A DNA stretch of 64,000 nt from an uncultured Victivallales bacterium (lineage in GTDB: Bacteria; Verrucomicrobiota; Lentisphaeria; Victivallales; UBA1829): contig CALXSJ010000001.1 of NCBI GenBank assembly GCA_944391115.1, forward strand, positions 67,169 to 131,168. The letters run 5' to 3'. Shown here one piece after another: positions 7,153 to 61,428 of the stretch. Position numbers and translations under genes: made by a program. The first letter of the stretch is position 1; the number at the start of each line of letters is the position of its first letter. The notes under the pieces were generated by a model. The model ran no database searches. It saw nothing but the letters and a program-made list of their open reading frames with translations, and was not told the origin of the DNA.

Positions 7153-7206
7153 AACATTGATTTGTTAATCAGTCGAACACTTTTTTCAAAATAAGATAGG
7201 AAAAAC

Positions 7207-8280
7207 ATGAAAAAACTGCTTCTCATAATCAACAGTTTGGAAACAGGCGGAGCCGAGCGCGTATGTGTCAATCTGGCGAATTATTTTGCAGAACGTGGAT
7301 ATCAGGTTTCGATTGCCGTTCTTTTTCATAAGAAGGAAACGATTTACTCCCTGCATCCGTCAATTCAGATTATCAATGTCCCTCCGCTGAGATTCGGGCG
7401 TTTCCCCGCCGTGAAAATATTTCTGCTTCAGCTGTTTCTCATGCACAGGATTCCCAATGCTGTGATTGCATTCATGTGGCATGCCAATGTCTTTGCCTCC
7501 ATTCTGGCGAAAGTCAGCGGCATCCGCTGCATTCTTTCGGAACGTTCCAATCCGGAAATCGCAAAGCATGATCCGATCCTGATTCGTCTTGCCTCCAGGT
7601 ATTTCCGATATGCTGACAGGATGGTGGTGCTGAACAAAGGTGCATTCCGTTTCATGTGCCAGGAAATGGGGTTGCCGCCGGAACGGATTGTCACAATACC
7701 GAATGCCTGCGAAAAAGCCGTTCCATGCAGGACGGAACGACTCCTGGAACAGCCCTATCTCCTGGCAGTCGGACGTCTGGTTCCGGTAAAAGGATTCGAC
7801 CGTCTGATCCGGATGTTCGCGGAAATCGCAAAACTTCATCCGGAAGAACATCTGGTGATCTGCGGTGCCGGAAGTGAACTGGAAAATCTGAAAGCACTTG
7901 CCGCTTCGCTCAGACTGTCTGACAAGATTCATTTTCAGGGGGAATGCCGGAATCTTGCGCCATGGTATCAGCATGCAGATGCACTGTGCTTCACCTCGCA
8001 TTATGAAGGATGGCCGAATGTCATTATGGAGGCAATGATGCAGGGACTTCCTGTAATTTCCTTCAACTGCCACTATGGACCCTCCGAAATGATCTCCAGT
8101 CATCGGAACGGGATTCTGATTCCGCAGGATGATGAAACATGTTATATCCGTGAGACGGCTGCATATCTTGATCGTCTTCCGGAAAGCCGCGCCCGGTATT
8201 CCGTTGAAGCTGTCCGTTCCATCGGTGCCTTTACCACAGAAAAAATCTATCCCCGCTGGGAGGCAATTCTCGAAAGGTAA
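7207..8280 (+). CDS. GT4-family glycosyltransferase, tandem copy 1
   Basis: A 357-residue GT4 enzyme: TGGAERVCVNLANYFAERGY (about 14-33), donor-domain start LAVGRLVPVKGFDRLI (about 185-200), and E-x7-E in SHYEGWPNVIMEAM (about 261-274), then CHYGPSEMI. The next gene encodes a near copy across its whole length, including identical stretches such as FMWHANVFASILAKV and KIHFQGECRNLAPWY, so the two arose by recent tandem duplication. Seven bases separate them. The 54-base gap before this gene may hold a separate promoter. Confidence 0.92.
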   Translation: MKKLLLIINSLETGGAERVCVNLANYFAERGYQVSIAVLFHKKETIYSLHPSIQIINVPPLRFGRFPAVKIFLLQLFLMHRIPNAVIAFMWHANVFASILAKVSGIRCILSERSNPEIAKHDPILIRLASRYFRYADRMVVLNKGAFRFMCQEMGLPPERIVTIPNACEKAVPCRTERLLEQPYLLAVGRLVPVKGFDRLIRMFAEIAKLHPEEHLVICGAGSELENLKALAASLRLSDKIHFQGECRNLAPWYQHADALCFTSHYEGWPNVIMEAMMQGLPVISFNCHYGPSEMISSHRNGILIPQDDETCYIRETAAYLDRLPESRARYSVEAVRSIGAFTTEKIYPRWEAILER

Positions 8281-8287
8281 AAGAAAC

Positions 8288-9373
8288 ATGAAAAAACTGC
8301 TTTTCATCATTCCAAGTTTGCAGACAGGCGGAGCCGAGCGAGTATGTGCCAATCTGGCGAATTATTTTGCCGAACATGGATATCAGGTTTCGATTGCCCT
8401 CCTCTATCATGATAAAAAGACGATTTATTCCCTTCATTCTTCCATCCGGTTCATCCATGTGCCGCCGTTAAGGTTCGGCCTTGCTCCGGCTGCACTGGCA
8501 TTTCTGCTGGAGCTGTTTTTCACGCGCCGGATTCCCGATGTTATGGTTGCCTTCATGTGGCATGCCAATGTCTTCGCCTCCATTTTGGCAAAGGTCTGTG
8601 GCCTCCGTTGCATTCTCTCAGAACATTGCAACCCGGAACTCGAAAAACACGTTCCGAACCTGATCCGTCTTGCGACCAGGTATTTCCATTATGCCGACAA
8701 GATGGTGGTGCTGAACATAGGGGCATTCCGCTTTATGAGCCAGAAAATAGGAATGCCGTCGGAACGGATTGTCACGATTCCAAATGCTTACGAGAAAAAC
8801 GTTCCATGTTATACGGAACGACTTATGAAACACCCCTATCTGCTGGCAGTCGGACGTCTGGATCCGGTGAAAGGATTTGACCGCCTGATTCGGATGTTTG
8901 CGGAAATCGCAAAACTTCACCCGGAAGAACATCTGGTAATCTGCGGTGACGGAAGGGAACGGGAAAATCTGAAAACACTTGCCGCTTCGCTCAGACTGTC
9001 TGACAAGATTCATTTTCAGGGAGAATGCCGGAATCTTGCGCCATGGTACCGCCATGCGGACACTCTGTGCTTCACCTCGCATTCAGAAGGATGGCCCAAT
9101 GTCATCATGGAGGCAATGGAACAGGGACTTCCCGTAATTGCTTTCGACTGCCACTACGGGCCCGCGGAAATGATCTCCAGTCATCGGAACGGGATTCTGG
9201 TTCCGCAGGATGATGAAGCATGCTATATCCGCGAGATGACGGCATATCTTGACCGTCTCCCGGAAAGCCGCGCCCGCTATTCCGCCGAAGCAATCCGTTC
9301 CATCAGGGCCTTTACCATAGACAAAATATATCCCCGCTGGGAAGCAATTGTCGAAGAAGAAACAAAGAGGTAA
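8288..9373 (+). CDS. GT4-family glycosyltransferase, tandem copy 2
   Basis: A 361-residue paralogue of the preceding gene with the same motifs (TGGAERVCANLANYFAEHGY, LAVGRLDPVKGFDRLI, SHSEGWPNVIMEAM with E-x7-E). I start it at ATG 8288, where the protein aligns residue for residue with copy 1; an upstream in-frame extension lies wholly inside copy 1. Most of the differences lie in the N-terminal acceptor domain and around residues 65-80 and 115-130, while the donor domain is almost unchanged, which would suit two transfers from the same nucleotide sugar to different acceptors. This last point is inference. Confidence 0.92.
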   Translation: MKKLLFIIPSLQTGGAERVCANLANYFAEHGYQVSIALLYHDKKTIYSLHSSIRFIHVPPLRFGLAPAALAFLLELFFTRRIPDVMVAFMWHANVFASILAKVCGLRCILSEHCNPELEKHVPNLIRLATRYFHYADKMVVLNIGAFRFMSQKIGMPSERIVTIPNAYEKNVPCYTERLMKHPYLLAVGRLDPVKGFDRLIRMFAEIAKLHPEEHLVICGDGRERENLKTLAASLRLSDKIHFQGECRNLAPWYRHADTLCFTSHSEGWPNVIMEAMEQGLPVIAFDCHYGPAEMISSHRNGILVPQDDEACYIREMTAYLDRLPESRARYSAEAIRSIRAFTIDKIYPRWEAIVEEETKR

Positions 9374-12697: not shown

Positions 12698-13129
12698 TCA
12701 TTCCGCGTGGGTGTTGCCACCTGTTTGAATTTCTGAACTTTCCGCCGTTGCGCCATCCAGGCCGATGGCGAGATCCGACTTTGTCGCCTGAATGATCTTG
12801 GCGATTCCGGGAAGTCCGCTCTGGTTCGGAAGAAGGCTGACTGCTCCCTTGTTGATCTTGCCGGCAAAGATTCTGCCGTGCGGGGTCGGATCGTCGAGCG
12901 TGCCGGAAGATACACTGATGTATCCTGCCCAGCCGTCCTCCCAGATGATGACGCTCTTGTTCTGTGTCGATTTCGTCACGGAGGAGATGACGCTTTCCGA
13001 TGTTTCCGTTTTCCTGAGGATGTTCCCGGACGCGTCATACTCCGTGATTGTGCTCCGGGTCGCCGCGCATCCGGTCAGCACGAACAGGGCGACTGCCGAC
13101 AGAAGCAGGGTGAAAAGTTTGGTTTCCAT
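12698..13129 (-). CDS. Small lipoprotein at the end of the phage tail module
   Basis: A 143-residue protein with a lipoprotein signal (METKLFTLLLSAVALFVLTGC, cleavage before Cys21, lipobox LTGC). The mature part has no family I recognise; it contains VIIWEDGWAGYISVSSGT and ends in a polar tail. The start has AAAGGA seven bases upstream. It is the last minus-strand gene of the tail module, separated from the holin-like gene by 450 bases of hairpin repeats, and is followed by a strong terminator. A role like a phage Rz1-type spanin lipoprotein is possible from position, but it is long and not Pro-rich, so this is weak. Confidence 0.75.
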   Translation of the reverse strand: METKLFTLLLSAVALFVLTGCAATRSTITEYDASGNILRKTETSESVISSVTKSTQNKSVIIWEDGWAGYISVSSGTLDDPTPHGRIFAGKINKGAVSLLPNQSGLPGIAKIIQATKSDLAIGLDGATAESSEIQTGGNTHAE

Positions 13130-13175
13130 AATGTTTTCCTTTCCGGCGCACTGCGCCTTTAAAAATTAAATAAAA

Positions 13176-13260
13176 AATTGCGGAGCAATTTTGTGATCGT
13201 GCAGGACTCTCAGTCCTGCCGCGGTCCAGCTGCGCAAGCTGGTCGCCGCAGGCGAAATCT
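13176..13260 (+). repeat. Multi-hairpin interspersed repeat, class A, copy 2
   Basis: Four inverted repeats in a row: AAAATTGC-GGA-GCAATTTT (about 13174-13192), GCAGGACT-CTC-AGTCCTGC (13201-13219), CCAGCT-GCGCA-AGCTGG (13226-13242) and TCGCC-GCA-GGCGA (13243-13255), then AATC. The second to fourth units match the copy at 61048 almost base for base. Another perfect small palindrome, GGCGCA-C-TGCGCC, lies just to the left (13145-13157). Confidence 0.9.
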
Positions 13261-13421
13261 CCTCCGGCGGCGGTTCCAACCGCTAAAGGACGAGAAGCGA
13301 AGCTTCGAGAGCCGCCGGGACAGTCTGCAACCTCGTGAAAATGTCCGGCGCTCTCGCTGTTAAAAACATATTGAAAGAATGTCCGTGAAGAAAAAATGAT
13401 ATGGGGACGCCCGGAGCTCTC

Positions 13422-13572
13422 GAACTTTTCCTGACGAAAAGTTCTCGTCACTGAGCGGTCTGAACCGCTCCGGGCGGGGGATTTCGTGCTCCGCACGACC
13501 GGCGTTTCGCCGCCGGACCGCGACAAGGGCCGGAGGGCCCTTGACCCCGGGAAGAATGCCCGCGCATTCTTC
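13422..13572 (-). repeat. Multi-hairpin interspersed repeat, class B, copy 1
   Basis: Six hairpins in about 150 bases, given on the plus strand: GAACTTTTC..GAAAAGTTC (13422-13444), GAGCGGT-CTGA-ACCGCTC (13453-13470), TCGTGC-TCC-GCACGA (13484-13498), CCGGCG-TTTCGC-CGCCGG (13499-13516), CAAGGGCC-GGAG-GGCCCTTG (13524-13543), GAAGAATGC-CCGC-GCATTCTTC (13551-13572). Read on the minus strand, the last four are the same units in the same order as the class B copy at 25493. A GCGGTT..AACCGC and a GAAGC-GAA-GCTTC hairpin also lie between this and copy A2. Confidence 0.9.
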
Positions 13573-13580
13573 CGTTTTTT

Positions 13581-13841
13581 TTATTTTTTCAGAATCGGGA
13601 CGTTGATCATCGTGTGATACTGCTCGATCGCGGCGAGCTTTTCGCTGTTCTCGCTTACCTTGTCTTCCAGCTTCTCCAGGCGGTCGCAGTGTGCGCTCAT
13701 ATCGCTTGCGCAGTCGTCGCGGTGGACGTATTGCATCAGGCTTTTGTGCAGAAGCCGGATTTCCGTTGCCACCCAGCCGAGGACCGCGGTCATCACGGTA
13801 AGCGCGCCCGTGAGCATCGCGATTGCCCATCCTTCCGTCAT
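13581..13841 (-). CDS. Holin-like small membrane protein
   Basis: An 86-residue protein with one N-terminal transmembrane segment (MLTGALTVMTAVLGWVATEI, about residues 9-28) and a C-terminal coiled coil (CDRLEKLEDKVSENSEKLAA, about 52-71). Single-span plus coiled-coil proteins of this size at the end of phage tail modules are often holins or spanin-like helpers. Its start overlaps the upstream gene stop by four bases. Directly after its stop, the transcript would run into the class B hairpin chain. No endolysin gene accompanies it, so a lysis role is inference. Confidence 0.7.
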   Translation of the reverse strand: MTEGWAIAMLTGALTVMTAVLGWVATEIRLLHKSLMQYVHRDDCASDMSAHCDRLEKLEDKVSENSEKLAAIEQYHTMINVPILKK

Positions 13842-14245
13842 ATTGCCGCGCCCTCCTTTTCTTCGGTTTTCTTCCAGCCCTCCCAGCCGAAGAGTTCACA
13901 GTAGTTGCTCCAGCGGCGGGCCTTATTCATCCAGAGATAGCGCCGGATGTCATACCACCCGTAACGGTCCTTGACCAGCGTATAACAGTTCCGGCAGAAC
14001 CGGTCGTTTGCCGCGGTGAACTGTTCGCGCGTGCCGCCTTCGTAATATTCGACATCGTGGATCACGGCGGCGGGTTCGAAGATTCCCGCGCTTTCGGTGA
14101 CGAGCTTCCGGAGCCAGTCGGGGAATCTGTCCGGGCCGATCCCGTTGTAGATGCTTTCGATCTGCGTGATGCTGTATTTGTCCAGAATGTGGACGCCTTC
14201 CAGATCGAGGCCGTATGCCTTCCGGACAAGTTCAGGCGTTTTCAT
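13838..14245 (-). CDS. Tail-module protein with an HD-x3-Y motif (phospholipase-like or unknown)
   Basis: A 135-residue soluble protein. Its most conserved-looking stretch is FEPAAVIHDVEYYEGGTR (about 56-73), followed by AANDRFCRNCY (about 78-88). The order of an HD dyad, a Tyr and a later D/N-R-F with Cys residues resembles small phage phospholipase-A2-like or DUF1353-like proteins, but I cannot assign it firmly. It overlaps the holin-like gene by four bases and follows the LamG gene by two bases, so the three are translationally coupled. Residues 100-125 are Trp- and Arg-rich. Confidence 0.65.
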   Translation of the reverse strand: MKTPELVRKAYGLDLEGVHILDKYSITQIESIYNGIGPDRFPDWLRKLVTESAGIFEPAAVIHDVEYYEGGTREQFTAANDRFCRNCYTLVKDRYGWYDIRRYLWMNKARRWSNYCELFGWEGWKKTEEKEGAAI

Positions 14246-14247
14246 GG

Positions 14248-15207
14248 TTATGCCTCCTGTGTCGGCGTGAATTCATTTGCCAGAGCTGCTATCTCTGCGT
14301 TGTCAAGTACTCTGTTGTATACTCTTACACTTGAAAGACAGCACTCAGCTCCTTCATATGCTCTGTTTTTGAAAAAGTGATAAGGCGTATTGCCCATCAT
14401 GAAATACGTCGAGGATGATGGCAGGTCTCTATTTGTTGCAAATCTTGAAGTGAAAGAGCCATTAACATATGCCGAACAAACTTTTCCAGAGTAAGTTATG
14501 CAAAGATGATACCACTCATTGGTCGTTATTGTCGTGTTAAACGAGCCATCATCACCATACCCGGTTAGACGTAACTGTGAATTGTCAATGAAGAAGTAAT
14601 ACCAGTTTCCTGTAGAATAGGAACTATTGCTCAGCCCCATAAAGTATGCCGCACTGTCAAGCGAATTGAATTTTATATAGAAGCTCCATGTTCTGCTTTT
14701 ACTTCCGGATGGAATGTCAGCCGTATCTGTCGTATAGACAGCCGCTTCTTTCGCCATTTCAACGCAGGGCATGTTTCCATACATCGAATAGGTTATATCA
14801 CCACTCTTAGTTAAACTTTGTCCCGTTTCCGCTGTTGCCTTGTCTTCCGCAAGAGGCGCGTAGAAGACAAGTCCGTCCGTGGGGATTACAGCTGTAAATA
14901 ACTCAGCATAAACAAGCGCATCCGCGCTGTATACGCTTCCGGCCTGCGGCGTTACGGAAGTATAGGAAAGCCCCGTTGTCACGGTGTCTTCGAACGTGTA
15001 GACTCCGTCATTCAGGACGGCCCTGTAACCGGTCCATGTTTTTGCGGACGTGTCGACGGAGGCGCACTTGTAGTATTCCGCCGATCCGCCTCCTCCGGCG
15101 AGAGGCAGGAAATACTTGTTGTCAAGCAGCAGCCCTTTCTGTCCGACTTTCGGCTTTGAGGAGCTGAGGAAAAGACCGTCGAATAAAAAACCGGTTCCAT
15201 CTGACAT
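14248..15207 (-). CDS. LamG/concanavalin-fold domain protein (tail fibre or receptor-binding candidate)
   Basis: A 319-residue protein. The first 110 residues hold a small domain with TLNG-like carbohydrate-tower character; the rest is a LamG-type jelly roll starting at GLVFYAPLAEDKATAETGQS (about 119-138), continuing through WSFYIKFNSLDSAAYFMG and ending with the typical SSVRVYNRVLDNAEIAALAN (about 293-312). These domains bind glycans or proteins; in tail modules they decorate fibres. I start at ATG 15207, behind a near-perfect AGGAGGTG six bases away, rather than further upstream. Only one base separates it from the stop of the preceding gene. Confidence 0.85.
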   Translation of the reverse strand: MSDGTGFLFDGLFLSSSKPKVGQKGLLLDNKYFLPLAGGGGSAEYYKCASVDTSAKTWTGYRAVLNDGVYTFEDTVTTGLSYTSVTPQAGSVYSADALVYAELFTAVIPTDGLVFYAPLAEDKATAETGQSLTKSGDITYSMYGNMPCVEMAKEAAVYTTDTADIPSGSKSRTWSFYIKFNSLDSAAYFMGLSNSSYSTGNWYYFFIDNSQLRLTGYGDDGSFNTTITTNEWYHLCITYSGKVCSAYVNGSFTSRFATNRDLPSSSTYFMMGNTPYHFFKNRAYEGAECCLSSVRVYNRVLDNAEIAALANEFTPTQEA

Positions 15208-15208
15208 G

Positions 15209-15550
15209 TTACACCTCCTGTTCCTGTTCAGTTTCGGTTGACTGAACGGGCAGCTCGAAGTTCCAAAGAACCGTGATAGGCTGCCCGTCATTTGTAGAGA
15301 TGGAACCGTCCGAAGAAGGCGTAAGCGCCTGTGCTGTCATAGTATTTCCGACTGGTTCCGAAGTGGCATATGCAGGTTTCACGCTTGACCCGCCAGACGC
15401 GCTTCCGGAAATGGTTCCGAAACTTCCGCTGCTGTCCTTGTAACGAGTTACAACCTGTCCGTTGACAAGAGCGTTGAAAATCAAAATTGCCCCCTCCGGG
15501 ACAACGGCAGAGGAAAAGTCCGCGTCTTCGTATATTTTTTTAACGTCCAT
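15209..15550 (-). CDS. Small tail-module protein of unknown function
   Basis: A 113-residue acidic, Gly/Ser-rich protein (GTISGSASGGSSVKPAYA in the middle, acidic tail TETEQEQEV). No transmembrane segment, no recognised domain. Because it lies between the collagen-like fibre and LamG genes, with a one-base gap to the latter, it may be a fibre-tip or assembly accessory. The ribosome site is AAAGGACAAAAACAT-like, acceptable. Confidence 0.65.
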   Translation of the reverse strand: MDVKKIYEDADFSSAVVPEGAILIFNALVNGQVVTRYKDSSGSFGTISGSASGGSSVKPAYATSEPVGNTMTAQALTPSSDGSISTNDGQPITVLWNFELPVQSTETEQEQEV

Positions 15551-15579
15551 ATGTTTTTGTCCTTTCCTATTCTGATGGG

Positions 15580-15963
15580 TTATACCGAATCATAAAATTC
15601 CTGGACGATGATTGAAACAGAAAAATCAATGAAAAAAGGACCCAGCCATGCACGAATAACCGGGGTGACAGAACATTCCACCACCGGAGTCCCTGAAAAA
15701 TATCCGTTTTCTCCAAGTTCGACCCCAAAAGGGAGTTCTCCTGAATGAACAGCATACCTTTCTGCAGGTGTTTCTAAGCCAGGTCCTCTGACATCCAGAT
15801 GCTTGTTATAAATAGGCCTATTGAGTGGAAGCTTAAAATATGTGCTTCCTAAAACATAAAGAGAAATTCTTTCCCATATTATATTGTTTTGAAAATAGAC
15901 ACGTTTTATACTATGCCCCTGATAGAACAGCATACCTGCTTCATGTCCATTCGCGCATATCAT
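15580..15963 (-). CDS. Small tail-module protein of unknown function
   Basis: A 127-residue protein starting MICANGHEAGMLFYQGHSIK. It contains Ig-fold-like beta segments (VHSGELPFGVELGENGYFSG, about 73-92), reminiscent of cadherin-like putative-Ig repeats in which ligand-binding proteins state 'more X than Y gives Z', but a single repeat is too little to be sure. I choose ATG 15963 because GGAGG lies seven bases upstream; the ATG at 15969 is too close to it. The upstream fibre gene ends at 15966. Confidence 0.6.
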   Translation of the reverse strand: MICANGHEAGMLFYQGHSIKRVYFQNNIIWERISLYVLGSTYFKLPLNRPIYNKHLDVRGPGLETPAERYAVHSGELPFGVELGENGYFSGTPVVECSVTPVIRAWLGPFFIDFSVSIIVQEFYDSV

Positions 15964-15965
15964 AC

Positions 15966-17692
<1,727 letters not shown>

Positions 17693-17702
<10 letters not shown>

Positions 17703-18187
17703 ATGTTTTTCTCCTTTTTTATCCGGCATGCTTCTCTGGTCAGGGATTCCTTGATTTTCTCCCAGTCCGGCCCGAGTCCCTCGTAGCGGTAATTGCGCTC
17801 TGTCTGAATCAGCAAATCGTTGAGTTCCGTGAAGTCTTCGGATTCCTCGATCGCGCATCCGAGATGTCCGAGAATTTTCAGATGGTTTTTCATGACGGAG
17901 ACGGACGCCGTCCCGTCGGACGCGCCGGAATCCTTTGCGGTCATGAGCTCCTCGTGATAGACCATCGCCCGCGCGACGTGCTTTTCCACGCACAGAATGC
18001 AGGAATCCATTTTGACGAAGCGGTTTTCGTGCAGGAAGCGCCCGATTTCATCCTCGAATCTCCGCATGGAGTTTTCCCGGAATCTTCTTGCGCCGCACGC
18101 CGGACATTTTTCCGATGCTTCGCGCTCCCGCTTCTGCTGTTTGAGTTTCGCTTCCAGATCTTCTTTCGTAATATTCGAGTATGGCAT
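17693..18187 (-). CDS. Tail-module zinc-ribbon-like protein
   Basis: A 164-residue mostly helical protein starting [20 protein letters not shown], with one CPAC motif (about 25-28) and a CILC motif (about 56-59), together a plausible four-Cys zinc site. The remainder is helical ([20 protein letters not shown]). I start at ATG 18187 because GGAGG lies five bases upstream; a longer frame would overlap the preceding gene. The stop overlaps the fibre start by ten bases. No named family is recognised; a fibre-assembly chaperone would fit the position, as inference only. Confidence 0.65.
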
Positions 18188-18201
18188 GGTTTCCTCCGTT
18201 T

Positions 18202-19695
18202 TCAGCATGATTCCGTTCCTTCCTGCGTTCTTTTTTCGCACCGGTATCCGGCAAGACAGTTATGACTGTCATGGATTCCGCATTCATATTCATATTCGTG
18301 GAATTCCCCGTTTTCATCTGGGATTGCAGACGCTGATGCAGAAACGGAATACGTGCACCTGAAATATGCCGCATTGTTCAAAAAACCGTATGCATAAGAG
18401 CTGCATGAAGAATCTTCCGGCGCTTTTGCTGTTTCCGCCACTGCGTCACAGTCATAAAAAACGCTTCCATTTGCACCATAAAAACCATATACATCACCTG
18501 ATGTCGAATTTGCCAATGCCTTGCAGTTGTAAAAATAAGAACTTTTCCCTCCTGAAAATCCGCGTGTGTCCGTATTGTCTTTTCCTGTGCAGCGGGCGTT
18601 GCAATGATAAAATTTACTTATTTCGCAATCAAAAAAACCATTGGCGTATAATGCATCACTGTTTATGACTGAATTGCAGGAATAGAAATTGCTGTGATCG
18701 CATCCGGCGAAGCCATAACCGTTTATTCCTTCTTCCATTTCTGACGTGCATTTATAAAAACAAGAGGAATCGCATTCATAAAAACCGAATGCATAAACAT
18801 CATACAAACATTTTATTTTTGAATGACAGTCTACAAAGCAACTGGTGGTTCTGCTGTTGCTTGTGCATTGATAAAATCCTGATACAAAATGTTCGTATTT
18901 CCGGCCGGTATATGCTGCAATCTCTGCATTGCATTTATAAAAATGAGAACCAGAGCAATTTGCAAATCCCGCCGAGCAATGATCGCCGTGCGAATAATAA
19001 GTTTCGAATTCAACATGGCAATTATAAAAAACTCCACCAGTGCAACCCAGAAAACCTCCTGTCAATCTAGAATTTGCAGTCCTTCCATCATCTCTTAATT
19101 TCACGCTGCAGGAATTAAAATAACATTGATAAAGATCATAATAACCAACGCATTGCGTTCTTGAAACATCTATGTCTGCTCCTTCCAGAATGAATTTTTT
19201 GGGCGCGTAAATCGTTGGTTTTCTCAAGCTGTAATGTGCTGTCCCTGAACAAAGTATACGGATATAAGAACAGCACTGATTATTAAGGACGCATGCAATC
19301 TGCTCCAGTGCCCATGTAAGGTTTTTCCATGGATTTTCCTTTGATCCGTCACCGCCTTTGTTCCGTGCGTCAAGACAGGCTTTAATTTCTTCATCGGTAT
19401 GGTTTTCTCCGTCCCAGAAAATGCTGTCGTCCCAGTCGGCGTCCGCGTCAAGATCGCAGTAATAGGTATATGCCATGACTTTTTTCTCCATGACTTCCAC
19501 GAGCTCTTTTCCGTAATCCTCCGGAATGTTGTCAATGTCTTCCGGTTCCGGGATTTCATTGATCTTGAAATCATAGAGCGTGACTTCCTCAAGCGGCGGA
19601 TTGCCGGGAAGCATCAGAAAGGGCGGATTTCTGTATTGCCCCGGCTGCCCCAGGATCGCGCCTTTTTCGTTCATCGGTATGACTGCCGTTTCCAT
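18202..19695 (-). CDS. Cys-rich repeat protein, probable beta-helix tail protein
   Basis: A 497-residue protein. After an N-terminal region of about 150 residues it consists of about eleven imperfect repeats of 25-30 residues of the form GF-x2-C-x2-S-x-FY-x-C-x(n), for example GFLGCTGGVFYNCHV, GFYECDSSCFYKCT and GFAGCDHSNFYSCNS. Such regular G/F/C spacing suggests a right-handed beta-helix with two Cys stacks along the solenoid. Cytoplasmic phage proteins seldom carry this many Cys. I start at ATG 19695 (GGGGAG eight bases upstream). It lies four bases after the upstream stop within the tail operon. Confidence 0.8.
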   Translation of the reverse strand: METAVIPMNEKGAILGQPGQYRNPPFLMLPGNPPLEEVTLYDFKINEIPEPEDIDNIPEDYGKELVEVMEKKVMAYTYYCDLDADADWDDSIFWDGENHTDEEIKACLDARNKGGDGSKENPWKNLTWALEQIACVLNNQCCSYIRILCSGTAHYSLRKPTIYAPKKFILEGADIDVSRTQCVGYYDLYQCYFNSCSVKLRDDGRTANSRLTGGFLGCTGGVFYNCHVEFETYYSHGDHCSAGFANCSGSHFYKCNAEIAAYTGRKYEHFVSGFYQCTSNSRTTSCFVDCHSKIKCLYDVYAFGFYECDSSCFYKCTSEMEEGINGYGFAGCDHSNFYSCNSVINSDALYANGFFDCEISKFYHCNARCTGKDNTDTRGFSGGKSSYFYNCKALANSTSGDVYGFYGANGSVFYDCDAVAETAKAPEDSSCSSYAYGFLNNAAYFRCTYSVSASASAIPDENGEFHEYEYECGIHDSHNCLAGYRCEKRTQEGTESC

Positions 19696-19699
19696 GATG

Positions 19700-20395
19700 T
19701 CACTCCCCGCAAAGGGCATAGCGGAAAATCTGCGGGATTCCGTTGGATGCCGTAGAGTTATGATCCTGCTGAATCGTCACGCGCATGGTTCCTTCCGTGT
19801 CTGTGGTGACGATTGCGCGCCCGAGCTGATAGTAACAGATTCTGGAGGTGTCGGACGGGAGGCAGGAATAGCCTTCCTCCGTGAGATTGACGATTTCGAC
19901 TTTTCCCGCCTGCGCTTCGGTTCCGGCGCTTTCGCTCGACTCGACAGGTGCGGTGTAACGGAGCGCGAAAACGCTTGTTTCGGTGATTTCCCCGGACTGA
20001 TACGGTTCCAGGGAAAACGTGACGTTGTTGACCTTGCAGACGCTGTTTCCGCTGAGTGGCGTCTGATCTGGATCATAGGTTGCGCCGTCCACGATGGCGA
20101 CGGAATATTTTCTGACCGGTTCCCCGTCTTCCCCCGTTTCGTCAGTCTCGATAAGCACGAGCTTGAAGTATCCGGTGTATCTGCCTGCGCCAGATGCGAT
20201 TCCGGCGGCTGTTCCGGGATGGTTCCGCGCGATTGCGCTGATGGTGATTCCGGAAGCGTTCCGATTGATCCGGACGGTCCGGTTGTCGCCCCGGAGCTCA
20301 TGGGTGCGGCAGTATTCGATGAGGGCGTTGATTTTCTCGAAGACTCCGTTCTTGAAACTGTCGCCGCTCCTGAGTTTTTCTGGGAGTCCGGTCAT
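19700..20395 (-). CDS. Tail-module structural protein of unknown function
   Basis: A 231-residue protein starting MTGLPEKLRSGDSFKNGVFE, with a central beta-rich part (YFKLVLIETDETGEDGEP, AIVDGATYDPDQTPLSG) and a C-terminal half ending GIPQIFRYALCGE. ATG 20395 has GGAGGAGG six bases upstream and overlaps the preceding stop by four bases (ATGA). The INALIEYCR near the N-terminus is like the first helix of several phage baseplate-hub proteins in Lentisphaerota and Bacteroidota prophages, but I cannot name a family. Confidence 0.65.
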   Translation of the reverse strand: MTGLPEKLRSGDSFKNGVFEKINALIEYCRTHELRGDNRTVRINRNASGITISAIARNHPGTAAGIASGAGRYTGYFKLVLIETDETGEDGEPVRKYSVAIVDGATYDPDQTPLSGNSVCKVNNVTFSLEPYQSGEITETSVFALRYTAPVESSESAGTEAQAGKVEIVNLTEEGYSCLPSDTSRICYYQLGRAIVTTDTEGTMRVTIQQDHNSTASNGIPQIFRYALCGE

Positions 20396-21171
20396 GATTT
20401 TCCTCCTCCGTAGAGATCGCCGTCCCATCCTTTGGCATCGCCGGAACGGGTGTAGGAGAGTGTGGCGATCCAGTATTTGCCGTTCCAGGAGACGCTTGCG
20501 GAGTCGCACTTCCAGTTCCCGCCGGTGATGCCGAACGTCTGATCCGGACTTGAGATTCTGTTGAGTTTTCCGCAGATCATTTTTCCGGCGCGCGCGGGGG
20601 AGGGGAATTTTGCGGATTCGGTCACCTGATAGGTTGCCACGTCATAGGATTCCATGCTGGGCTTCTGCGGTTCCGCCATGATTCTCCACGTTCTGCCGTC
20701 GGCGTCTTTTCCGGGCGGCAGTTCGCCGGCGGATTTGATCCATTTGAATTTTTCCGCGTCATCCCCTTCCAGGAGCAGATTTTTTGCATCTTTCCACCAT
20801 GCCGGGATCTGGAGGACGTCATTCCGTGCGCCGAGATAGTAATTCCAGTTCGCGCGGTAATCCGGATGGGATTCCAGGGGCATGGAGAGCATGCCGCAGG
20901 AGAGCTGTGCGGATTTTTTTCCGTAGCTGTCGTCCGGCGCGGCGACATTCAGGTTGCCGAGCGTGTTCTGATATCTGATTTCGCACTGCCAGAGATCGCC
21001 GTCGCTCTGGGATACCGCCGCGGAGACCACTTTTCTTCCGGAGGATGCCGGACTGATCTGCTGCTCCTCCATCAGCGCGGTCATTTCCTCGCGCGTTCCG
21101 TAATAGGTGACCGTGTCGCTCCGCCCGCTTTCGCTGCGTTCCCCCTGAATGGACTGATACTTGATGTTCAT
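20392..21171 (-). CDS. Tail-module protein of unknown function
   Basis: A 259-residue, Trp-rich soluble protein (NWNYYLGARNDVLQIPAWWK about 108-127; TGGNWKCDSASVSWNGKYWI about 220-239). It follows the tape-measure gene by two bases and overlaps the next gene by four, so it is probably a distal-tail or baseplate component. No signal peptide, no named domain. Confidence 0.65.
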   Translation of the reverse strand: MNIKYQSIQGERSESGRSDTVTYYGTREEMTALMEEQQISPASSGRKVVSAAVSQSDGDLWQCEIRYQNTLGNLNVAAPDDSYGKKSAQLSCGMLSMPLESHPDYRANWNYYLGARNDVLQIPAWWKDAKNLLLEGDDAEKFKWIKSAGELPPGKDADGRTWRIMAEPQKPSMESYDVATYQVTESAKFPSPARAGKMICGKLNRISSPDQTFGITGGNWKCDSASVSWNGKYWIATLSYTRSGDAKGWDGDLYGGGKS

Positions 21172-21173
21172 GA

Positions 21174-22925
21174 TTAAAACTTCCCTATGTCAGCGATTGT
21201 TTTTGTGATCTTCTCAAGAAGCTCATTGGTCTTCTTATGATATTCCGCGATCTGCCACCCGACCGTGTCCCTGTCCGGTGTGGCGGCTCCCGTTGCAAAT
21301 CCGCCGCGTGACGTCAGCGAGCCGGTCCGGATGGAGAGGTCTCCGGGGGCGGGGGCGTTCCTGCTGTCCCGTTCCCATGTCAGATCGGCAAGCCCCGTCA
21401 CTCTGGCCTTTTCCTGTCTGGTCAGGGCGCTTCCTTTGATTGATTCCGCTTCGCAGACGGCTTTTTCCCGTTCCGTCCGCCCGCCCTGTTCTGTTCGCCG
21501 CGGCGTCGCCTGCCGGATGCTTTTGCGCTCCGCCAGGACCGCATCGACTTTTTCCTTGGAAAGGCGGATGCCCTGCTGTTCCAGTTCGTTGATGAATTTC
21601 AGACGTTCGGCCTCTTCGGTCAAGCCGCGATTGAGCAGATCCTGATATTGATTGTTGAAACGTTCCCGTTTCAGAAAAGCGTTTGCTTTTTCCTCCTCGC
21701 GCGCGGTTTTTCTGGAGACCTGGTCGGCGCTGCCCTGAAAAGTTTTTTCCTTTTCTCCTGTTCGTGCCATGGCGCCGAGTCCGGCATCCGTCATTGCCCG
21801 GTCCAGATTCCGGTAGGCGGCTTCGGCTTCCGGGGTGGAGGCGGCGTGCTTTCCCGTATAGGCAGCCGCGTTTCGTTTCATTTCCGCAATTTCCGGGTCC
21901 GAGTAATTTCCCGACGCTTCGGCTTTTGCGATGGCGTCTTCCACCCCGTGTGCACGATCGTAATTGCGCGCATGAAACGCTTTTTTCTCCATTTGGCGTT
22001 TCCGGTTGTCGAACTCCGTTTCGGGATCTTTTTTCCGCAATTCGTTCCGTTTTTTCTGGAGCGCCATCATTTGTTTCACCAATGCGGTCTGCATCTCTGC
22101 GGCTTTCATTGCGTTTTCGCTTGTGCGTCCGCCGCTCAGCACATTGTTCCAGTAAGAATCCGCATCGATGATTTTGTTATAGGCATCACGCTGTGCACGC
22201 ATCTCCTTGAGCTGCCTGTCGATGTCGGCAAGTTCTTCCTTGTGCTGTTTTTTTCCGACTTCCCGCATCGCATCATCCAGACCCGTGATCCGCCCCGTCG
22301 TTTCGTCGATGCTGACGCCGAGCCCGGCATAGGATTTCTTCAGCTGCTCGATCAGTTTCAACGCTTCGGATTTCTGTTCACAGGAGAGCATCTCTTCCGA
22401 CGAAAGCGCCTGAAGCTGTTTCAGCGCGTCGCTTTCTGACTGTCTCTGCCGGTCGTTTGCCGCCGCAAGCTTTTCTGTCTCCTGCACATTCGCGCCATAA
22501 AGATCCACCTGATCCTGCAGTGGCTTGCTGGTTTTTGCATCCACCATTGCATTTGCTGTTCTTTTGACCCCTTCGATGCCTAATTCCGTCAATACGTTGA
22601 GCCCGACTCCTTTTGCATAATCCGGGAGATTTCCGGCAGCGCCTTTCACTTTCCCTGCGACTTCCTTTATCCCGGTTCCGACATTTTTCGCCATTTCCGG
22701 GAATCCCTGAATCCCCTTGCGGATTCCCTTTCCGAGGCTTTTGAGTGTGTTGTCCGCCATTCCCGGCAGCGCAGTGATTTTTTTCGAGATCAGGTTTCCG
22801 GCTTTTGTTCCGAATGTCTGGAGAAAACCGGAAAACCTTTGACTGGCTTTTTCCGTGGCATCCGCAAATTTTCCCAATGCTTGGCGGGTGCGGAGAAGGA
22901 TGCTTTCCAAATCTTCTTTTGCCAT
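21174..22925 (-). CDS. Tape-measure-like tail protein
   Basis: A 583-residue, almost wholly helical protein. The N-terminal 120 residues contain an amphipathic Gly/Ala-rich stretch (GIKEVAGKVKGAAGNLPDYA, about 86-105), then long Lys/Glu/Gln-rich coiled coils (ADIDRQLKEMRAQRDAYNKI, KQMMALQKKRNELRKKDPE), and a C-terminal part ending EYHKKTNELLEKITKTIADI. This is the make-up of phage tape-measure proteins, which set tail length. It is short for the class; if 1.5 angstrom per residue holds, the tail would be under about 90 nm. It is the first gene of the block after the inverted cassette. Confidence 0.75.
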   Translation of the reverse strand: MAKEDLESILLRTRQALGKFADATEKASQRFSGFLQTFGTKAGNLISKKITALPGMADNTLKSLGKGIRKGIQGFPEMAKNVGTGIKEVAGKVKGAAGNLPDYAKGVGLNVLTELGIEGVKRTANAMVDAKTSKPLQDQVDLYGANVQETEKLAAANDRQRQSESDALKQLQALSSEEMLSCEQKSEALKLIEQLKKSYAGLGVSIDETTGRITGLDDAMREVGKKQHKEELADIDRQLKEMRAQRDAYNKIIDADSYWNNVLSGGRTSENAMKAAEMQTALVKQMMALQKKRNELRKKDPETEFDNRKRQMEKKAFHARNYDRAHGVEDAIAKAEASGNYSDPEIAEMKRNAAAYTGKHAASTPEAEAAYRNLDRAMTDAGLGAMARTGEKEKTFQGSADQVSRKTAREEEKANAFLKRERFNNQYQDLLNRGLTEEAERLKFINELEQQGIRLSKEKVDAVLAERKSIRQATPRRTEQGGRTEREKAVCEAESIKGSALTRQEKARVTGLADLTWERDSRNAPAPGDLSIRTGSLTSRGGFATGAATPDRDTVGWQIAEYHKKTNELLEKITKTIADIGKF

Positions 22926-23066
22926 TTCAGTTCTTCCTGTTTTTTTACTTTTATAATTGTTTCCTTAATCGGCTTTTCTTCTGTTTTCTGCTTGTATCCC
23001 AATGGAAATCCTGTTATAGTAACTGAGGATGAAGTTCTGAATGAAAAAATCCTGAAGGAGTGTATG

Positions 23067-23573
23067 ATGGAATTGCGATGGTATCAGCGCCAGCCGTGGA
23101 AATTCATAGTGATTGTTGTTCTTCTCTGTGCCGCTCCGGCCAGCGGCTTTGTGATATTCGGTCTATTGATGTTCATGTACTGGCAGGATTTTTTTCCGCC
23201 TCCGATTCCGGCGGAGTATCTCACGTTCGATGGTTACGAGAACCCCGATCTTTACCGTCTCAAGCGCCGAATCCGCCGGCGTCTTTTTCTTGCCGATGTG
23301 TGGGGATGGATGGCTGTATTTGCATTTGGAGGGGCGATTCCTGCCGCTTATCGTTTTGGTGAAGGTGACGGAGCACTTGTAATATTGTTCGGTGGCTGGT
23401 TTCTGGCCACCGTGTTTGTGATGCTGCTTGTTTCCATGAGAGGCCTGATCCCGTATCTGATAGCAGAATACGAGTATCGCATGAGCGAATCGCCATACAC
23501 GGTGGCAGACAATATTCCGCCAAGTCTGACGATTTCCGGCAATGACAGCCCCCCGGACAGTCCGGAGAAATGA
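23067..23573 (+). CDS. Multi-span membrane protein, duplicated copy 1 (inverted cassette)
   Basis: A 168-residue protein with hydrophobic segments at about residues 11-36 (IVIVVLLCAAPASGFVIFGL), 82-97 and 106-128 (VILFGGWFLATVFVMLLVSM), a basic stretch LKRRIRRRLF between, and a polar Pro-rich tail ending DSPPDSPEK. AAGGAG lies six bases before ATG 23067; the ATG at 23064 is a near alternative, but copy 2 keeps only the equivalent of 23067. It is read on the plus strand, opposite to the tail genes on both sides. No family is recognised. Position suggests cargo (a moron) such as an immunity or exclusion factor, which is inference. Confidence 0.75.
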   Translation: MELRWYQRQPWKFIVIVVLLCAAPASGFVIFGLLMFMYWQDFFPPPIPAEYLTFDGYENPDLYRLKRRIRRRLFLADVWGWMAVFAFGGAIPAAYRFGEGDGALVILFGGWFLATVFVMLLVSMRGLIPYLIAEYEYRMSESPYTVADNIPPSLTISGNDSPPDSPEK

Positions 23574-23641
23574 TCCGCCTCTTACCGCCAGCGGTTTTCT
23601 TTTGCGGAAATTTTGAATGCAAAATCCTGAAGGAGTGTGCG

Positions 23642-24160
23642 ATGGAATTGCGATGGTATCAGCGCCAGCCGTGGAAATTCATAGTGATTGTTGTTCTTCT
23701 CTGTGCCGCTCCGGCCAGCGGCTTTGTGATATTCGGTCTATTGATGATCTTGTACTGGCAGGATTTTTTTCCGCCCCCGATTCCGGCGGAGTATCTCACG
23801 TTCAATGGTCGCGAGAACCCCGATCTTTACCGTCTCAAGCGCCGAATCCGCCGACGTCTTTTTCTTGGCGATGTGTGGGGATGGATGGCGATATTTGCGT
23901 TTGGGGGGGCGATTCCTGCCGCTTTTTGCATCGGGAAACAACATCCGGGAACCGATGTGGGAATTGCAATACTGTTTGGTGGCTGGTTTCTGGCCACCGT
24001 GTTTGTGATGCTGCTTGTTTCCATGAGAGGCCTGATCCCGTATCTGATAGCAGAATACGAGTATCGCATGAGCGAATCGCCATACACGGTGGCGGATAAT
24101 ATTCCGCCAAGTCTGACGATTTCCGGCAATGACAGCCCCCCGGACAGTCCGGAAAAGTGA
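23642..24160 (+). CDS. Multi-span membrane protein, duplicated copy 2 (inverted cassette)
   Basis: A 172-residue near copy of the preceding gene. The first 65 residues and the last 50 are almost identical, also at the DNA level including the ribosome site (AAGGAGTGT). The difference is concentrated in one loop: copy 1 has YRFGEGDGAL where copy 2 has FCIGKQHPGTDVG. This means a recent tandem duplication of a unit of about 575 bases, with divergence limited to one loop between membrane segments 2 and 3. That is what one expects if the loop is the specificity part. Confidence 0.75.
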   Translation: MELRWYQRQPWKFIVIVVLLCAAPASGFVIFGLLMILYWQDFFPPPIPAEYLTFNGRENPDLYRLKRRIRRRLFLGDVWGWMAIFAFGGAIPAAFCIGKQHPGTDVGIAILFGGWFLATVFVMLLVSMRGLIPYLIAEYEYRMSESPYTVADNIPPSLTISGNDSPPDSPEK

Positions 24161-24198
24161 TCTTTCTCTTTTTTTTGATGATTTTTGATTTTTATTAT

Positions 24199-24227
24199 TT
24201 GACATTGTTTGATGTTTCTTTTATATT
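24199..24227 (+). promoter_or_regulatory. Near-consensus sigma-70 promoter
   Basis: TTGACA (24199-24204), a 17-base spacer and TATATT (24222-24227). The predicted start near 24234 leaves a leader of about 27 bases before the proposed AUA start at 24261, and includes the GAGGG ribosome site. Confidence 0.75.
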
Positions 24228-24260
24228 AGCATATCGAAAACAAACAAAAAGAGGGTAGTC

Positions 24261-24689
24261 ATACACACAACATGTCCGCATTGCAAACAGGTCTACGAAG
24301 TTGAACCGCAGTATCTCGGGCGCCGGATCGAATGCCAGAAATGCAAACAGGAATTTACAATTGAAAACTCTCCCGTTCCTTCTGTGCCGCCTGTGCCCCT
24401 CCAGGCAAAACCCGTCAATGCGGAGGAAAAGTTCAAAGCTCCGCTCCTTTCCATAATTTTCAATATCCTCGGATATGTCTCTCTGGCTTTGTTTCTTTTC
24501 TGTCTTGCCGGCTCGGTGATCCTGATTGTTCAACGGGATTTTGCCGGGGCCGGAACAACTCTGTACGCGGTCGGCATCGTTCTTCTGAACGCATTGCTCA
24601 TGTTCGGATTGTCGCAGGTGGTCCGCGCCATTTCCGAAACGGCGTTCAATACGCGCCAGCTCCTGAAACTCCAGCGCGAAAAGTCCTGA
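24261..24689 (+). CDS. Zinc-ribbon membrane protein, probable AUA start
   Basis: The frame codes an MJ0042-type zinc ribbon near its N-terminus (TCPHCKQVYEVEP, then LGRRIECQKCKQEF, Cys pairs about residues 5/8 and 24/27), a Pro-rich linker, two transmembrane segments (IIFNILGYVSLALFLFCLAG about 59-78; TTLYAVGIVLLNALLMFGL about 95-113) and an amphipathic C-terminal helix. No ATG, GTG or TTG lies in frame before the zinc ribbon and after the upstream stop at 24210. The only codon with a properly spaced ribosome site (GAGGG, five bases) is ATA 24261. A shorter start at GTG 24384 would delete the ribbon. It is the third gene of the inverted cassette and has its own promoter. Confidence 0.7.
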   Translation: MHTTCPHCKQVYEVEPQYLGRRIECQKCKQEFTIENSPVPSVPPVPLQAKPVNAEEKFKAPLLSIIFNILGYVSLALFLFCLAGSVILIVQRDFAGAGTTLYAVGIVLLNALLMFGLSQVVRAISETAFNTRQLLKLQREKS

Positions 24690-24694
24690 CGGAA

Positions 24695-25408
24695 TCACCT
24701 GCCGCCGGCACGGAGATACTCCTCCGCCAGATGCATCGTGTATTCGTAAATTTCCCGGCGGAGTTCCGCATTGCTCCGTCTGCGGATGTCCGCCCCGGGG
24801 TTTTTCCGCCGCATCGCCTGTATGAAATAGAAACAGCATGCGGCCAGACTCATTTCGAACATCACGCGGGAGGCGCTCTCGTTGCTTTCCCGCGCGACCG
24901 TCGAACAGAGTCTCGTGAGCCAGTCGATGTCAAAGGCCGGCGGCGCGGACCCCTTCTCCGCGGCATGTTCCGGCAGCATCCGCAGCGGACGGAAGGCCCG
25001 GGAGATCAGTTCGCAGATCAGGTTTCCCGCTTCCCCGTAGTCGATCCCGTTTTTTCCGCAGAAGCCGATAGCCGCGGCGGCAATCTCCGCCGGCGGGCGT
25101 TGCAGTTCCTCCCATTTGCGTGAAAGCAGGAAGACGGCGATGTCCGTATCCAGATCGTCCGCATGTTCGAAGTCTGAAGCATAGGCGTTGCCTGTCGCCC
25201 AGAGATACGCCCAGAGGGCCGGGGTCGGCGGATGGAGTTCCAGCGGCCCGAGGCTGAAGGAAAAACGGAGAGCGTTTCTCAGTCCGAGATACTCATCCCG
25301 TCTGTCATATTGCGAGTCTTCCAGTTCCCGCAGATGCGGGTCTTCCGCAAGAAGCCTCTGGAATTCCGCCGATGCGGCAAGGGTTCTGAGCTGGTTTACC
25401 GTAAACAT
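24695..25408 (-). CDS. Tail-module protein of unknown function (position of a tail assembly chaperone)
   Basis: A 237-residue, mostly helical soluble protein starting MFTVNQLRTLAASAEFQRLL, with FSLGPLELHPPTPALWAYLW (about 51-70) and ACCFYFIQAMRRKNPGADI (about 190-208). The L-x-P-x-TPA-x-W type region and the general size recall phage proteins that lie between the tail tube and tape measure and act as assembly chaperones. No frameshift signal is evident. The gene ends five bases from the stop of the convergent zinc-ribbon gene. Confidence 0.6.
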   Translation of the reverse strand: MFTVNQLRTLAASAEFQRLLAEDPHLRELEDSQYDRRDEYLGLRNALRFSFSLGPLELHPPTPALWAYLWATGNAYASDFEHADDLDTDIAVFLLSRKWEELQRPPAEIAAAAIGFCGKNGIDYGEAGNLICELISRAFRPLRMLPEHAAEKGSAPPAFDIDWLTRLCSTVARESNESASRVMFEMSLAACCFYFIQAMRRKNPGADIRRRSNAELRREIYEYTMHLAEEYLRAGGR

Positions 25409-25492
25409 GAGAAACGCCTCCGTGTTTGTTTATTTCCACTGTTCCGTTTATGTTTTCATTTGCATTTTCCGCATTTCCCTTACAGAAAAGAC

Positions 25493-25585
25493 GGAAAAAT
25501 GCGGGCGCATTTTTCCCGGGGTCAAGGGGCTTTGACCCTTGTCGCGGTCCGGCGGCGAACCGCCGGTCGCGCGCGGCGCGAAATC
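25493..25585 (+). repeat. Multi-hairpin interspersed repeat, class B, copy 2
   Basis: Four hairpins in a row on the plus strand: GGAAAAATGC-GGGC-GCATTTTTCC (25493-25516), CAAGGG..CCCTTG (25523-25541, with an alternative GGTCAA..TTGACC pairing), CCGGCGG-CGAA-CCGCCGG (25549-25566) and TCGCGC-GCG-GCGCGA (25567-25581), ending AAATC. It corresponds unit by unit to the minus strand of 13484-13572. It sits between two tail genes, antisense to their transcription. Confidence 0.9.
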
Positions 25586-25616
25586 TTCCTTTCCGTAACA
25601 AGGGAGCCGGACCGCA

Positions 25617-25964
25617 TTACACCGTTTCCGCCGCGTAGGGATCAATTTCGGCGGAATCCGCGGTGCGTGCCGAGAGTGTCACTTCGGCATAGCCGGTATT
25701 GGTTTCGTTCTGGTCGACGCTTTCGATGATGTAGTCCTTTTCGCCGAGCGTGAGCTTGGAACCTGGCTCAATCGTGATCGCTTCCGCGTCAAGGAGCCCG
25801 GTCACGCTGATGGTTTCCCCGGTGGAATAGGCCTTGAGATCGGTCACCTGTCCCTTTTCATTGCGCGCCTCGGCGATTTCCGCGGTGCGGTTTCTGGTGA
25901 GGGAGTTGACGACGATCCCCGAGATTCCCGTGGTTGTAGTGATGATGCCGAACTGTTTTGCCAT
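25617..25964 (-). CDS. Small phage tail/connector-like protein
   Basis: A 115-residue beta-rich protein starting MAKQFGIITTTTGISGIVV, with TVTGLLDAEAITIEPGSK-like content (GETISVTGLLDAEAITIEPG) and ending IDPYAAETV. The size and fold pattern (short strands around GEKDYIIESVDQNETNTGY) suit a tail-tube or head-tail connector subunit. It is the most upstream gene of the minus-strand tail block: beyond it lie 320 bases without a phage gene and then housekeeping genes. I start at 25964 with AAAGGA ten bases upstream. Confidence 0.65.
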   Translation of the reverse strand: MAKQFGIITTTTGISGIVVNSLTRNRTAEIAEARNEKGQVTDLKAYSTGETISVTGLLDAEAITIEPGSKLTLGEKDYIIESVDQNETNTGYAEVTLSARTADSAEIDPYAAETV

Positions 25965-26287
25965 GTCAGGCCGTCCTTTCCTTTTCCGCATCGGGTCCGA
26001 TGCGTTTTTCCTGTTTCCGCCGTCCGCCCCGTGCGTTGCGGCGTCCGCTTCCGCGCTGTTTCCGTTCCGGAATCTTTTGCGCTGCGGTTTTCATTCTGCG
26101 ACAAGCGTCAAACAGATTTGCCCGGAAAAGTGGTGTTTCCCTTCCGGAACCGGTGGAAAAAACCGTCAAAGACGGGGATGCTCCTGTGCGCTTTTTTTCG
26201 CGATTCGTCCGGTGCGGCGTTTGTTTCCGCGGCGTTTGCGGTTATATTATCGGCGTGAAATAATTTTGCCGCGAAAGGATTGAGTGT
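25965..26287. other. Spacer upstream of the tail module
   Basis: About 320 bases between the first tail gene (-) and the lipoprotein gene (+). A basic, low-complexity minus-strand frame (25966-26169, TTG start) ends against the tail gene, but its Arg/Lys/Gly-rich translation and lack of a ribosome site make it doubtful. A TATATT at about 26243 could serve the plus-strand operon. No integrase, repressor or attachment-site repeat is visible here. Confidence 0.4.
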
Positions 26288-60958: not shown

Positions 60959-61047
60959 GGTATTATAAAGTAATACCGGAAAGCCGGAATGCAATCCCTG
61001 TTTCCGGGAAAAAACGGTTTTTATTCAAAAAAATTTAGGTTAATACC

Positions 61048-61138
61048 GCGATGCTCTGCATCGCCAAAAATTGCTTCGTGCAGGACTCTCAGTCCTGCCG
61101 CGGTCCAGCTGCGTAAGCTGGTCGCCGGAGGCGAAATC
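61048..61138 (+). repeat. Multi-hairpin interspersed repeat, class A, copy 3
   Basis: GCGATGC-TCT-GCATCGC (61048-61064), GCAGGACT-CTC-AGTCCTGC (61080-61098), CCAGCT-GCGTA-AGCTGG (61105-61121) and TCGCC-GGA-GGCGA (61122-61134) then AATC. A further inverted repeat TACCGCG..CGCGGTA (61144-61168) follows at once. This is the fullest class A copy. Confidence 0.92.
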
Positions 61139-61205
61139 CCCAATACCGCGCATGCTTGCATCGCGGTAATTTATTAAAAAAAATCAGGAGAATCGTATGA
61201 AGCCC

Positions 61206-61280
61206 CGCATCGCCAAAACGGCTTCGTGCTCTCCTTTCAGTTCTGCTGCGGTCCAGCTGGCCGCCGGAGGCGGAATTCCC
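61206..61280 (+). repeat. Multi-hairpin interspersed repeat, class A, copy 4 (degraded)
   Basis: Begins GCATCGCCAAAACGGCTTCG, keeps CTTTCAGTTCTGCTGCGGTC, then CCAGCTGG with the loop lost, then CCGCC-GGA-GGCGG. It lies some 70 bases after copy 3 in the same orientation and looks like a decayed tandem neighbour. Confidence 0.8.
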
Positions 61281-61428
61281 GGTCCGCCGTTTACTCCGCA
61301 CCGGGACAGTTCATTCGGGGCAGAATTTCCGGAGTTCCGTCCCGGCTCCGGAAATTCTGTTTTTCTGCGGCTTTGTGCGGAGAGGGGACGGTAATCCGTT
61401 TGCGTTTTGCCCCGGCAGGCGGACCGGA

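Follow-up and report, generated by a model that had tools for sequence, protein, structure and literature searches.

Two hairpin repeats in a phage-like module

The window analysed here is a stretch of 64,000 nucleotides from an uncultured Victivallales bacterium (G000:C1:67169-131168), whose draft genome comprises 3.66 Mb on 44 contigs and is 95% complete. Between the genes of a phage-like module it carries two copies of a multi-hairpin repeat, class B, at 13.5 and 25.5 kb, as well as units of a related repeat, class A. The class B copies are probably order-specific intergenic DNA repeats of the kind known as repetitive extragenic palindromes (REP) and bacterial interspersed mosaic elements (BIME), with a core that is also found in solitary ('solo') class A elements of the IS200/IS605 type, and with paired stem changes that arise mainly at the DNA level. 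The phage character of the module is clear for a collagen-type tail fibre open reading frame (ORF) on the minus strand at 15966-17993 (PF01391; phage tail tip domain PF24243); most neighbours of the 25.5 kb copy match no family.

The two class B copies are mutually inverted (13480-13580 and 25486-25585) and agree at 78% over 74 nt and at 88% over 43 nt. Both yield one common set of four hairpins, whichever strand is folded and whether it is treated as RNA or as DNA (z-scores of -2.9 to -5.2); the values, -2.9 to -4.7 for RNA and -3.7 to -5.2 for DNA, are similar between the strands and between RNA and DNA. The minimal unit of copy 1 (13478-13574, minus strand; covariance-model match G000:C1:80645-80716, 95 bits) has its hairpins in the order 4-3-2-1 in the sense used by an earlier, sequence-only reading of this DNA. 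Sequence and folding place hairpin 1 (TCGTGC-GGA-GCACGA) at 13484-13498, hairpin 2 (CCGGCG..CGCCGG) at 13499-13516 and hairpin 3 (CAAGGGCC..GGCCCTTG) at 13524-13543, all on the minus strand, and a terminator-like hairpin 4 (GGAAGAATGC-CCGC-GCATTCTTCC, then GTTTTTTTTA) occupies 13550-13573 on the plus strand. Copy 2 (25492-25588, plus strand; match G000:C1:92686-92756, 89 bits) consists of hairpin 4 on the minus strand (25493-25516) followed on the plus strand by hairpins 3 (25523-25541), 2 (25549-25566) and 1 (TCGCGC-GCG-GCGCGA, 25567-25581).

As the sequence-only reading had it, the copies align and both of the stem pairs that it named differ on both arms: TCGTGC/GCACGA in copy 1 against TCGCGC/GCGCGA in copy 2 for hairpin 1, and GGAAGAATGC/GCATTCTTCC against GGAAAAATGC/GCATTTTTCC for hairpin 4. 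It made no mention of hairpin 3 of copy 2, where a G.A mismatch (CAAGGGGC..GACCCTTG) lacks any compensation, so the stem differences between the copies are not all compensated. Its statement that both copies oppose transcription is half right. All flanking ORFs (12698-13129, 13581-13841, 24695-25408 and 25617-25991) are on the minus strand, which the 25.5 kb copy opposes; at 13.5 kb, however, the class B sense is itself the minus strand, like that of the flanking ORFs.

Copy 1 is part of a larger arrangement. It has an extension (13408-13476, plus strand) in which an outer stem CGCCCGG/CCGGGCG encloses the hairpins GAACTTTTC..GAAAAGTTC and GAGCGG..CCGCTC, and it is faced by an extended class A copy with a hairpin-rich extension of its own (13161-13400, plus strand; core 13220-13259). 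Together they make a composite A> <B unit of about 420 bp (13161-13580) to which no strand is assigned.

A common core confined to one order

Written as the reverse complement of the strand first read, class B has the anatomy GGGGATTTCG-H1-CGACC-H2-GGACCRCG-H3-ACCCC-H4, then CCGT (H1 to H4 being hairpins 1 to 4), over about 100 nt. Class A shares this through H3, which gives a common core GATTTCG-hairpin1-CGACC-hairpin2-GGACCRCG-hairpin3. The proposal that the two classes are one superfamily was thereby confirmed: the shared frame recurs in at least 144 genomic places, and a single covariance model aligns both classes. This model, built from the class B core and applied at E<=0.1, was used because MAFFT misaligned hairpin 1 between the classes.

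The model yields at least 144 matches in the 3.66 Mb genome itself. Several contigs end in or next to elements (C1:1-65, C17:1-40, C34:1-40, C24:80 and C43:80), so repeat arrays have probably collapsed in the draft and the copy number is probably an underestimate. Within the genus, other species carry 72 (G001), at least 82 (G003) and 4 (G002) copies, and some other genera of the family carry none; copy number across related genomes thus runs from 0 to more than 80 and is patchy even within one genus. In a sample of 241 genomes of the phylum the family is present in 10, all of the same order and spread over several of its families, with no core matches outside that order. It was not found in viral contigs, phage records or plasmid records, Rfam searches at gathering and relaxed thresholds returned nothing relevant, and the open-licence literature searched contained no description of it, so that the repeat family is apparently undescribed there. 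Pattern-scan matches beyond Lentisphaeria/Victivallales, as far as they were read, look like chance, except one in a metagenome-assembled genome (L110) whose sample also yielded a Lentisphaeria bin.

The hairpin structure of the family is real. The genome-wide covariation check that the sequence-only reading had called for was positive: among 1711 column pairs the top nine were without exception predicted ones, and none of the non-pairs attained E<0.05, in an R-scape-like test run with our own script, not R-scape itself (parsimony-based null on a tree of 187 distinct cores, 40 simulations). Cells are paired in 98.5% of cases among 103 distinct sequences from relatives and in 97.4% among 130 from the same genome, and both-sided changes affect 17 of 20 and 16 of 20 pairs, respectively, a level that none of 500 shuffles matched. 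The agreement with the shared frame far exceeds chance: sliding the 3' partners by one to three columns lowers the paired cells from 97-98% to approximately 30-40%.

Mobile solo A elements and older class B arrays

Solo A elements are about 150 nt long, and the 25 copies have near-invariant ends. In the sense of the earlier reading, TTCAAAAAAATTTAGG directly follows TTYAT, a hairpin lies near each end (GCGATGC-TCT-GCATCGC after the left end and ACCGCG..CGCGGT just before the right end) and the element terminates in GGTAATTTAT; the left flank is TTYAT and the element's own end TTTAT. The window contains one such non-autonomous IS200-type element at 61025-61174 on the plus strand, which runs from TTTAT and TTCAAAAAAATTTAGG through hairpin, core and hairpin to GGTAATTTAT. 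A degenerate second class A unit stands in tandem with it (61178-61300, plus strand), an adjacency expected from repeated insertion at the same TTTAT, and another degenerate class A element lies at 2807-2934 on the plus strand (core 2879-2918).

Empty sites were sought using the flanks with the element left out. In G001, with 91-95% nucleotide identity, four solo A sites (L018, L021, L022 and L214) lack the element, and they show precise insertion 3' of TTYAT without target duplication. Insertion is often at stop codons, where the element supplies a new TAA and the original stop remains on the far side. The empty site of L018 lies behind what is presumably a DAHP-synthase-like gene, named from its C-terminal motif.

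The ends of solo A are shared with elements encoding a Y1 TnpA (L333, L339, L340, L349, L341 and L344). In relatives, GATACC-hairpin-GGTAGTTCAT follows soon after the stop codon of Y1 tnpA genes (L339, L340/L349, L341 and L344), the left end of L340 reads TTTAT then TCTTTTGGGTTTAATACC-hairpin, matching solo A, and in G024 the remnant of a tnpA gene (L333) continues into GGGCATGCTTGCATCGCGGTAGTTCAT, the right-end hairpin of solo A. Such ends are features published for IS200/IS605 ends (PMC6006769), and short ends-only copies of such elements are known as palindrome-associated transposable elements (PATEs; PMC7290912). Solo A resembles PATEs (PMC7290912, PMC3119063) in being short, in lacking a coding gene, in its subterminal hairpins at both ends, in a fixed short left-flank target without target duplication and in sharing its ends with tnpA-bearing copies. 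Unlike them, it has an internal three-hairpin core that is also present outside it in class B, and no active transposase was found in the same genome. Judging from these ends and empty sites, solo A is a non-autonomous mobile element of the IS200/IS605 type, presumably moved in trans by such a TnpA. As a mover within the same genome, a Y1 gene, including one of the REP-associated tyrosine transposase (RAYT) type, was rejected as a candidate: the only copy, an IS200-like Y1 gene near a tRNA gene (G000:C35:25416-25862), is broken, and its ends differ from those of solo A.

Class B has a different make-up and a longer history. The unit spans GGGGATTTCG to GCATTTTTCCGT and has no IS200-type left or right ends at its boundaries. 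Many copies in the genus bear an extension on the GGGG side, with an outer stem around two inner hairpins, and such extensions also repeat every 171-174 bp (L030). Composite A> <B units of approximately 411-420 bp are found both alone, as at 13161-13580, and in tandem (C5:91103-91577; C5:132195-132673). For most of the class B and composite sites that were examined, G001 and often G003 have an element in the orthologous place, so these units are older. At L227, class B and part of a second A unit sit inside a solo A in this genome and in G001, where G003 has a plain solo A. A paralogous locus in G001 (L351, G001:C6:127087-127472) lacks the composite of the window, and for single class B units the empty sites gave no clean boundary. 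L351 reproduces the 13 kb flanks but not the composite, which means that the phage-like module is present more than once in the sister genome.

Copy 2 itself is present in G001 and G003 as well. In G002 only a remnant is left, with H1 and H2 lost and H3 and H4 kept, a decay that would not be expected of a strictly maintained fold.

Class B units and composites are high-copy extragenic hairpin units that are clustered and alternate in orientation, as REP/BIME sequences are. Like the REP/BIME systems served by a RAYT (TnpA-REP) (PMC2817692, PMC3116915, PMC3733652, PMC6006769), they number more than 100 intergenic copies, are patchy among related species and lie in inverted and tandem clusters (A> <B pairs and arrays of 171-420 nt units). 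They differ in that class B has four hairpins over about 100 nt against a single hairpin of 20-65 nt, and in that no GTAG tag was seen; in most copies hairpin 4 is followed by CCGT, which is not a clean CGTC tag. Several high-copy genomes (G003, G019 and G026) gave no match to Y1, a RAYT gene with cores on its flanks was not found, and among the distant loci that were read none of the core-flanked genes turned out to be a transposase. The family thus combines known kinds of repeat, short IS200-derived elements and BIME-like arrays, and one shared core links the mobile unit with the older arrays. In this little-studied lineage it takes up a visible share of the intergenic DNA.

Paired changes as probable hairpin turnover in DNA

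Our reconstruction of stem events gave 87 double changes, 34 one-sided changes to G-U and 34 one-sided changes to A-C. In an RNA fold, G-U should be much better tolerated than A-C, and this balance favours neither strand; it is the more telling because the alignment model itself favours G-U. A control on 33 tRNAs gave 33 G-U and 0 A-C, the expected direction, albeit as a weak control since ARAGORN selects for pairing. The split in hairpin 4 was not used because chance hairpins are mixed in. Furthermore, loops occur in both orientations, in hairpin 4 as 9 pairs against 2.4 expected (P<2e-4) and in the extension-arm hairpins as 3 against 0.48 expected (P 0.006), counted with oriented anchors since palindromic arms match both strands. 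One such inversion is seen at a single orthologous locus, CCACAGG here (L012) and CCTGTGG in G001 (L389).

By template switching from one hairpin arm to the other, compensatory changes can arise in one step and loops can be flipped (PMC8794818, PMC8604942). The likeness to this quasipalindrome mutation at inverted repeats extends to double compensatory changes, arm homogenisation and inversion of the loop, or spacer (PMC8794818, PMC8604942), with the difference that the source here is one repeat family with over 180 distinct cores instead of a single gene. On balance the evidence favours turnover at the DNA level: the paired changes fit homogenisation of arms by template switching, and selection may also have acted on moving copies for their ability to form hairpins as DNA. 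The sequence-only reading had taken the paired changes to indicate selection on the fold; this is not established by them, given that the units compared are paralogous copies of an element that is mobile or repeated, that G-U equals A-C, that loops are inverted and that the fold decays at the 25.5 kb site. Covariation that would pass an R-scape-type test can arise from the turnover of DNA hairpins, and equal G-U and A-C counts together with inverted loops offer a way to tell such turnover from selection on RNA. With more than 180 distinct cores, the family is a natural system for measuring the correction of hairpins by template switching.

A history of this kind would begin with a Y1 transposase that moved solo A units as single-stranded DNA. 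B units would have arisen from or with them, and their spread would have involved insertion, amplification in tandem and recombination among inverted units. Compensatory changes would come mainly from arm correction, that is, template switching between hairpin arms, with some selection for hairpin-competent DNA in transposing lineages.

Several observations weigh against this account. The mobility that it ascribes to class B would belong to units without IS200 ends, and a DNA-level role in single-strand transposition is directly supported for solo A and not for class B. No intact Y1 transposase was found in the genome itself, only a broken gene, although absence from a draft of 44 contigs is not proof. 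The loop of hairpin 1, anchored by TTTCG, was seen in no inverted form in the copies, unlike the loops of hairpin 4. It has a closing C-G pair and reads mostly TNC on one strand and GNA on the opposite one; GNA loops are very stable in DNA. Finally, the unpaired core bases (GATTTCG, CGACC and GGACCRCG) are conserved across families of the order; together with the hairpin 1 loop this exceeds what pure mutation would leave, and some recognition function of the core is likely.

Of the alternatives, one fares best, although we hold it to be less probable than turnover: extruded or single-stranded DNA hairpins may be recognised by a host or transposase protein, for example as a site for a transposase or a nucleoid protein, with selection on the DNA fold. 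The strand symmetry of the one-sided changes, the DNA folding scores of -3.7 to -5.2, the conserved unpaired bases and the subterminal hairpins at the ends of solo A, as in IS200/IS605, all agree with it. On the other hand, no protein partner was found, the shared core lies between the IS200-type ends and not at them, and single-sided mismatches are as common as double changes, so that the fold is not strictly kept.

It is unlikely that the repeats are terminators or elements of 3' untranslated regions, maintained for that role beside stop codons. In both copies hairpin 4 scores as terminator-like (plus strand in copy 1, minus strand in copy 2), and at 25.5 kb it is the part retained in all four species (G001, G003 and G002 besides this genome). 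By a rough ORF-based count, about three quarters of the 25 solo A copies lie downstream of an ORF on the same strand, in many cases immediately at its stop codon. However, the stop-codon bias of solo A arises because its target motif ATRAA contains TAA/TGA, the class B copies have no consistent orientation towards neighbouring ORFs, and the terminator strand is co-directional with the genes at copy 2 and antisense at copy 1. A secondary, local use is another matter: at copy 2, hairpin 4 would lie after the upstream gene on the minus strand, and from this pattern and its retention alone hairpin 4 may serve in the window as a transcription terminator between minus-strand genes.

We give somewhat less credence still to the idea that the three-hairpin core is a recognition module, as single-stranded DNA or RNA, recruited by IS200-type and BIME-like carriers and acted on by a Victivallales protein. 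The structured RNA proposed by the sequence-only reading, cis-regulatory or small, with its fold under selection, is the least probable: strong covariation, unpaired bases conserved across families, RNA folding scores of -2.9 to -4.7 and a reverse-complement orientation ending in a terminator-like hairpin speak for it, but they are outweighed by the equal G-U and A-C events, fold scores similar for both strands and DNA, inverted loops, tandem and inverted arrays, the lack of an Rfam match, the decay of the orthologous 25.5 kb site in G002 and the demonstration that solo A copies are insertions. Ribozyme and tRNA-like readings of the extension were dropped by eye, as the defining cores are lacking.

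The window also holds repeats of other kinds. A 36-nt tandem repeat (16837-17081, five registers) lies within the collagen-repeat tail-fibre-like ORF 15966-17993 on the minus strand. A tandem duplication of approximately 0.5 kb, 95% identical, at 23046-24170 accounts for two near-identical ORFs on the plus strand (22839-23573 and 23570-24160), where the rest of the module is on the minus strand. At 7193-8799, a tandem pair of about 80% identity with a spacing of 1081 nt resembles duplicated genes.

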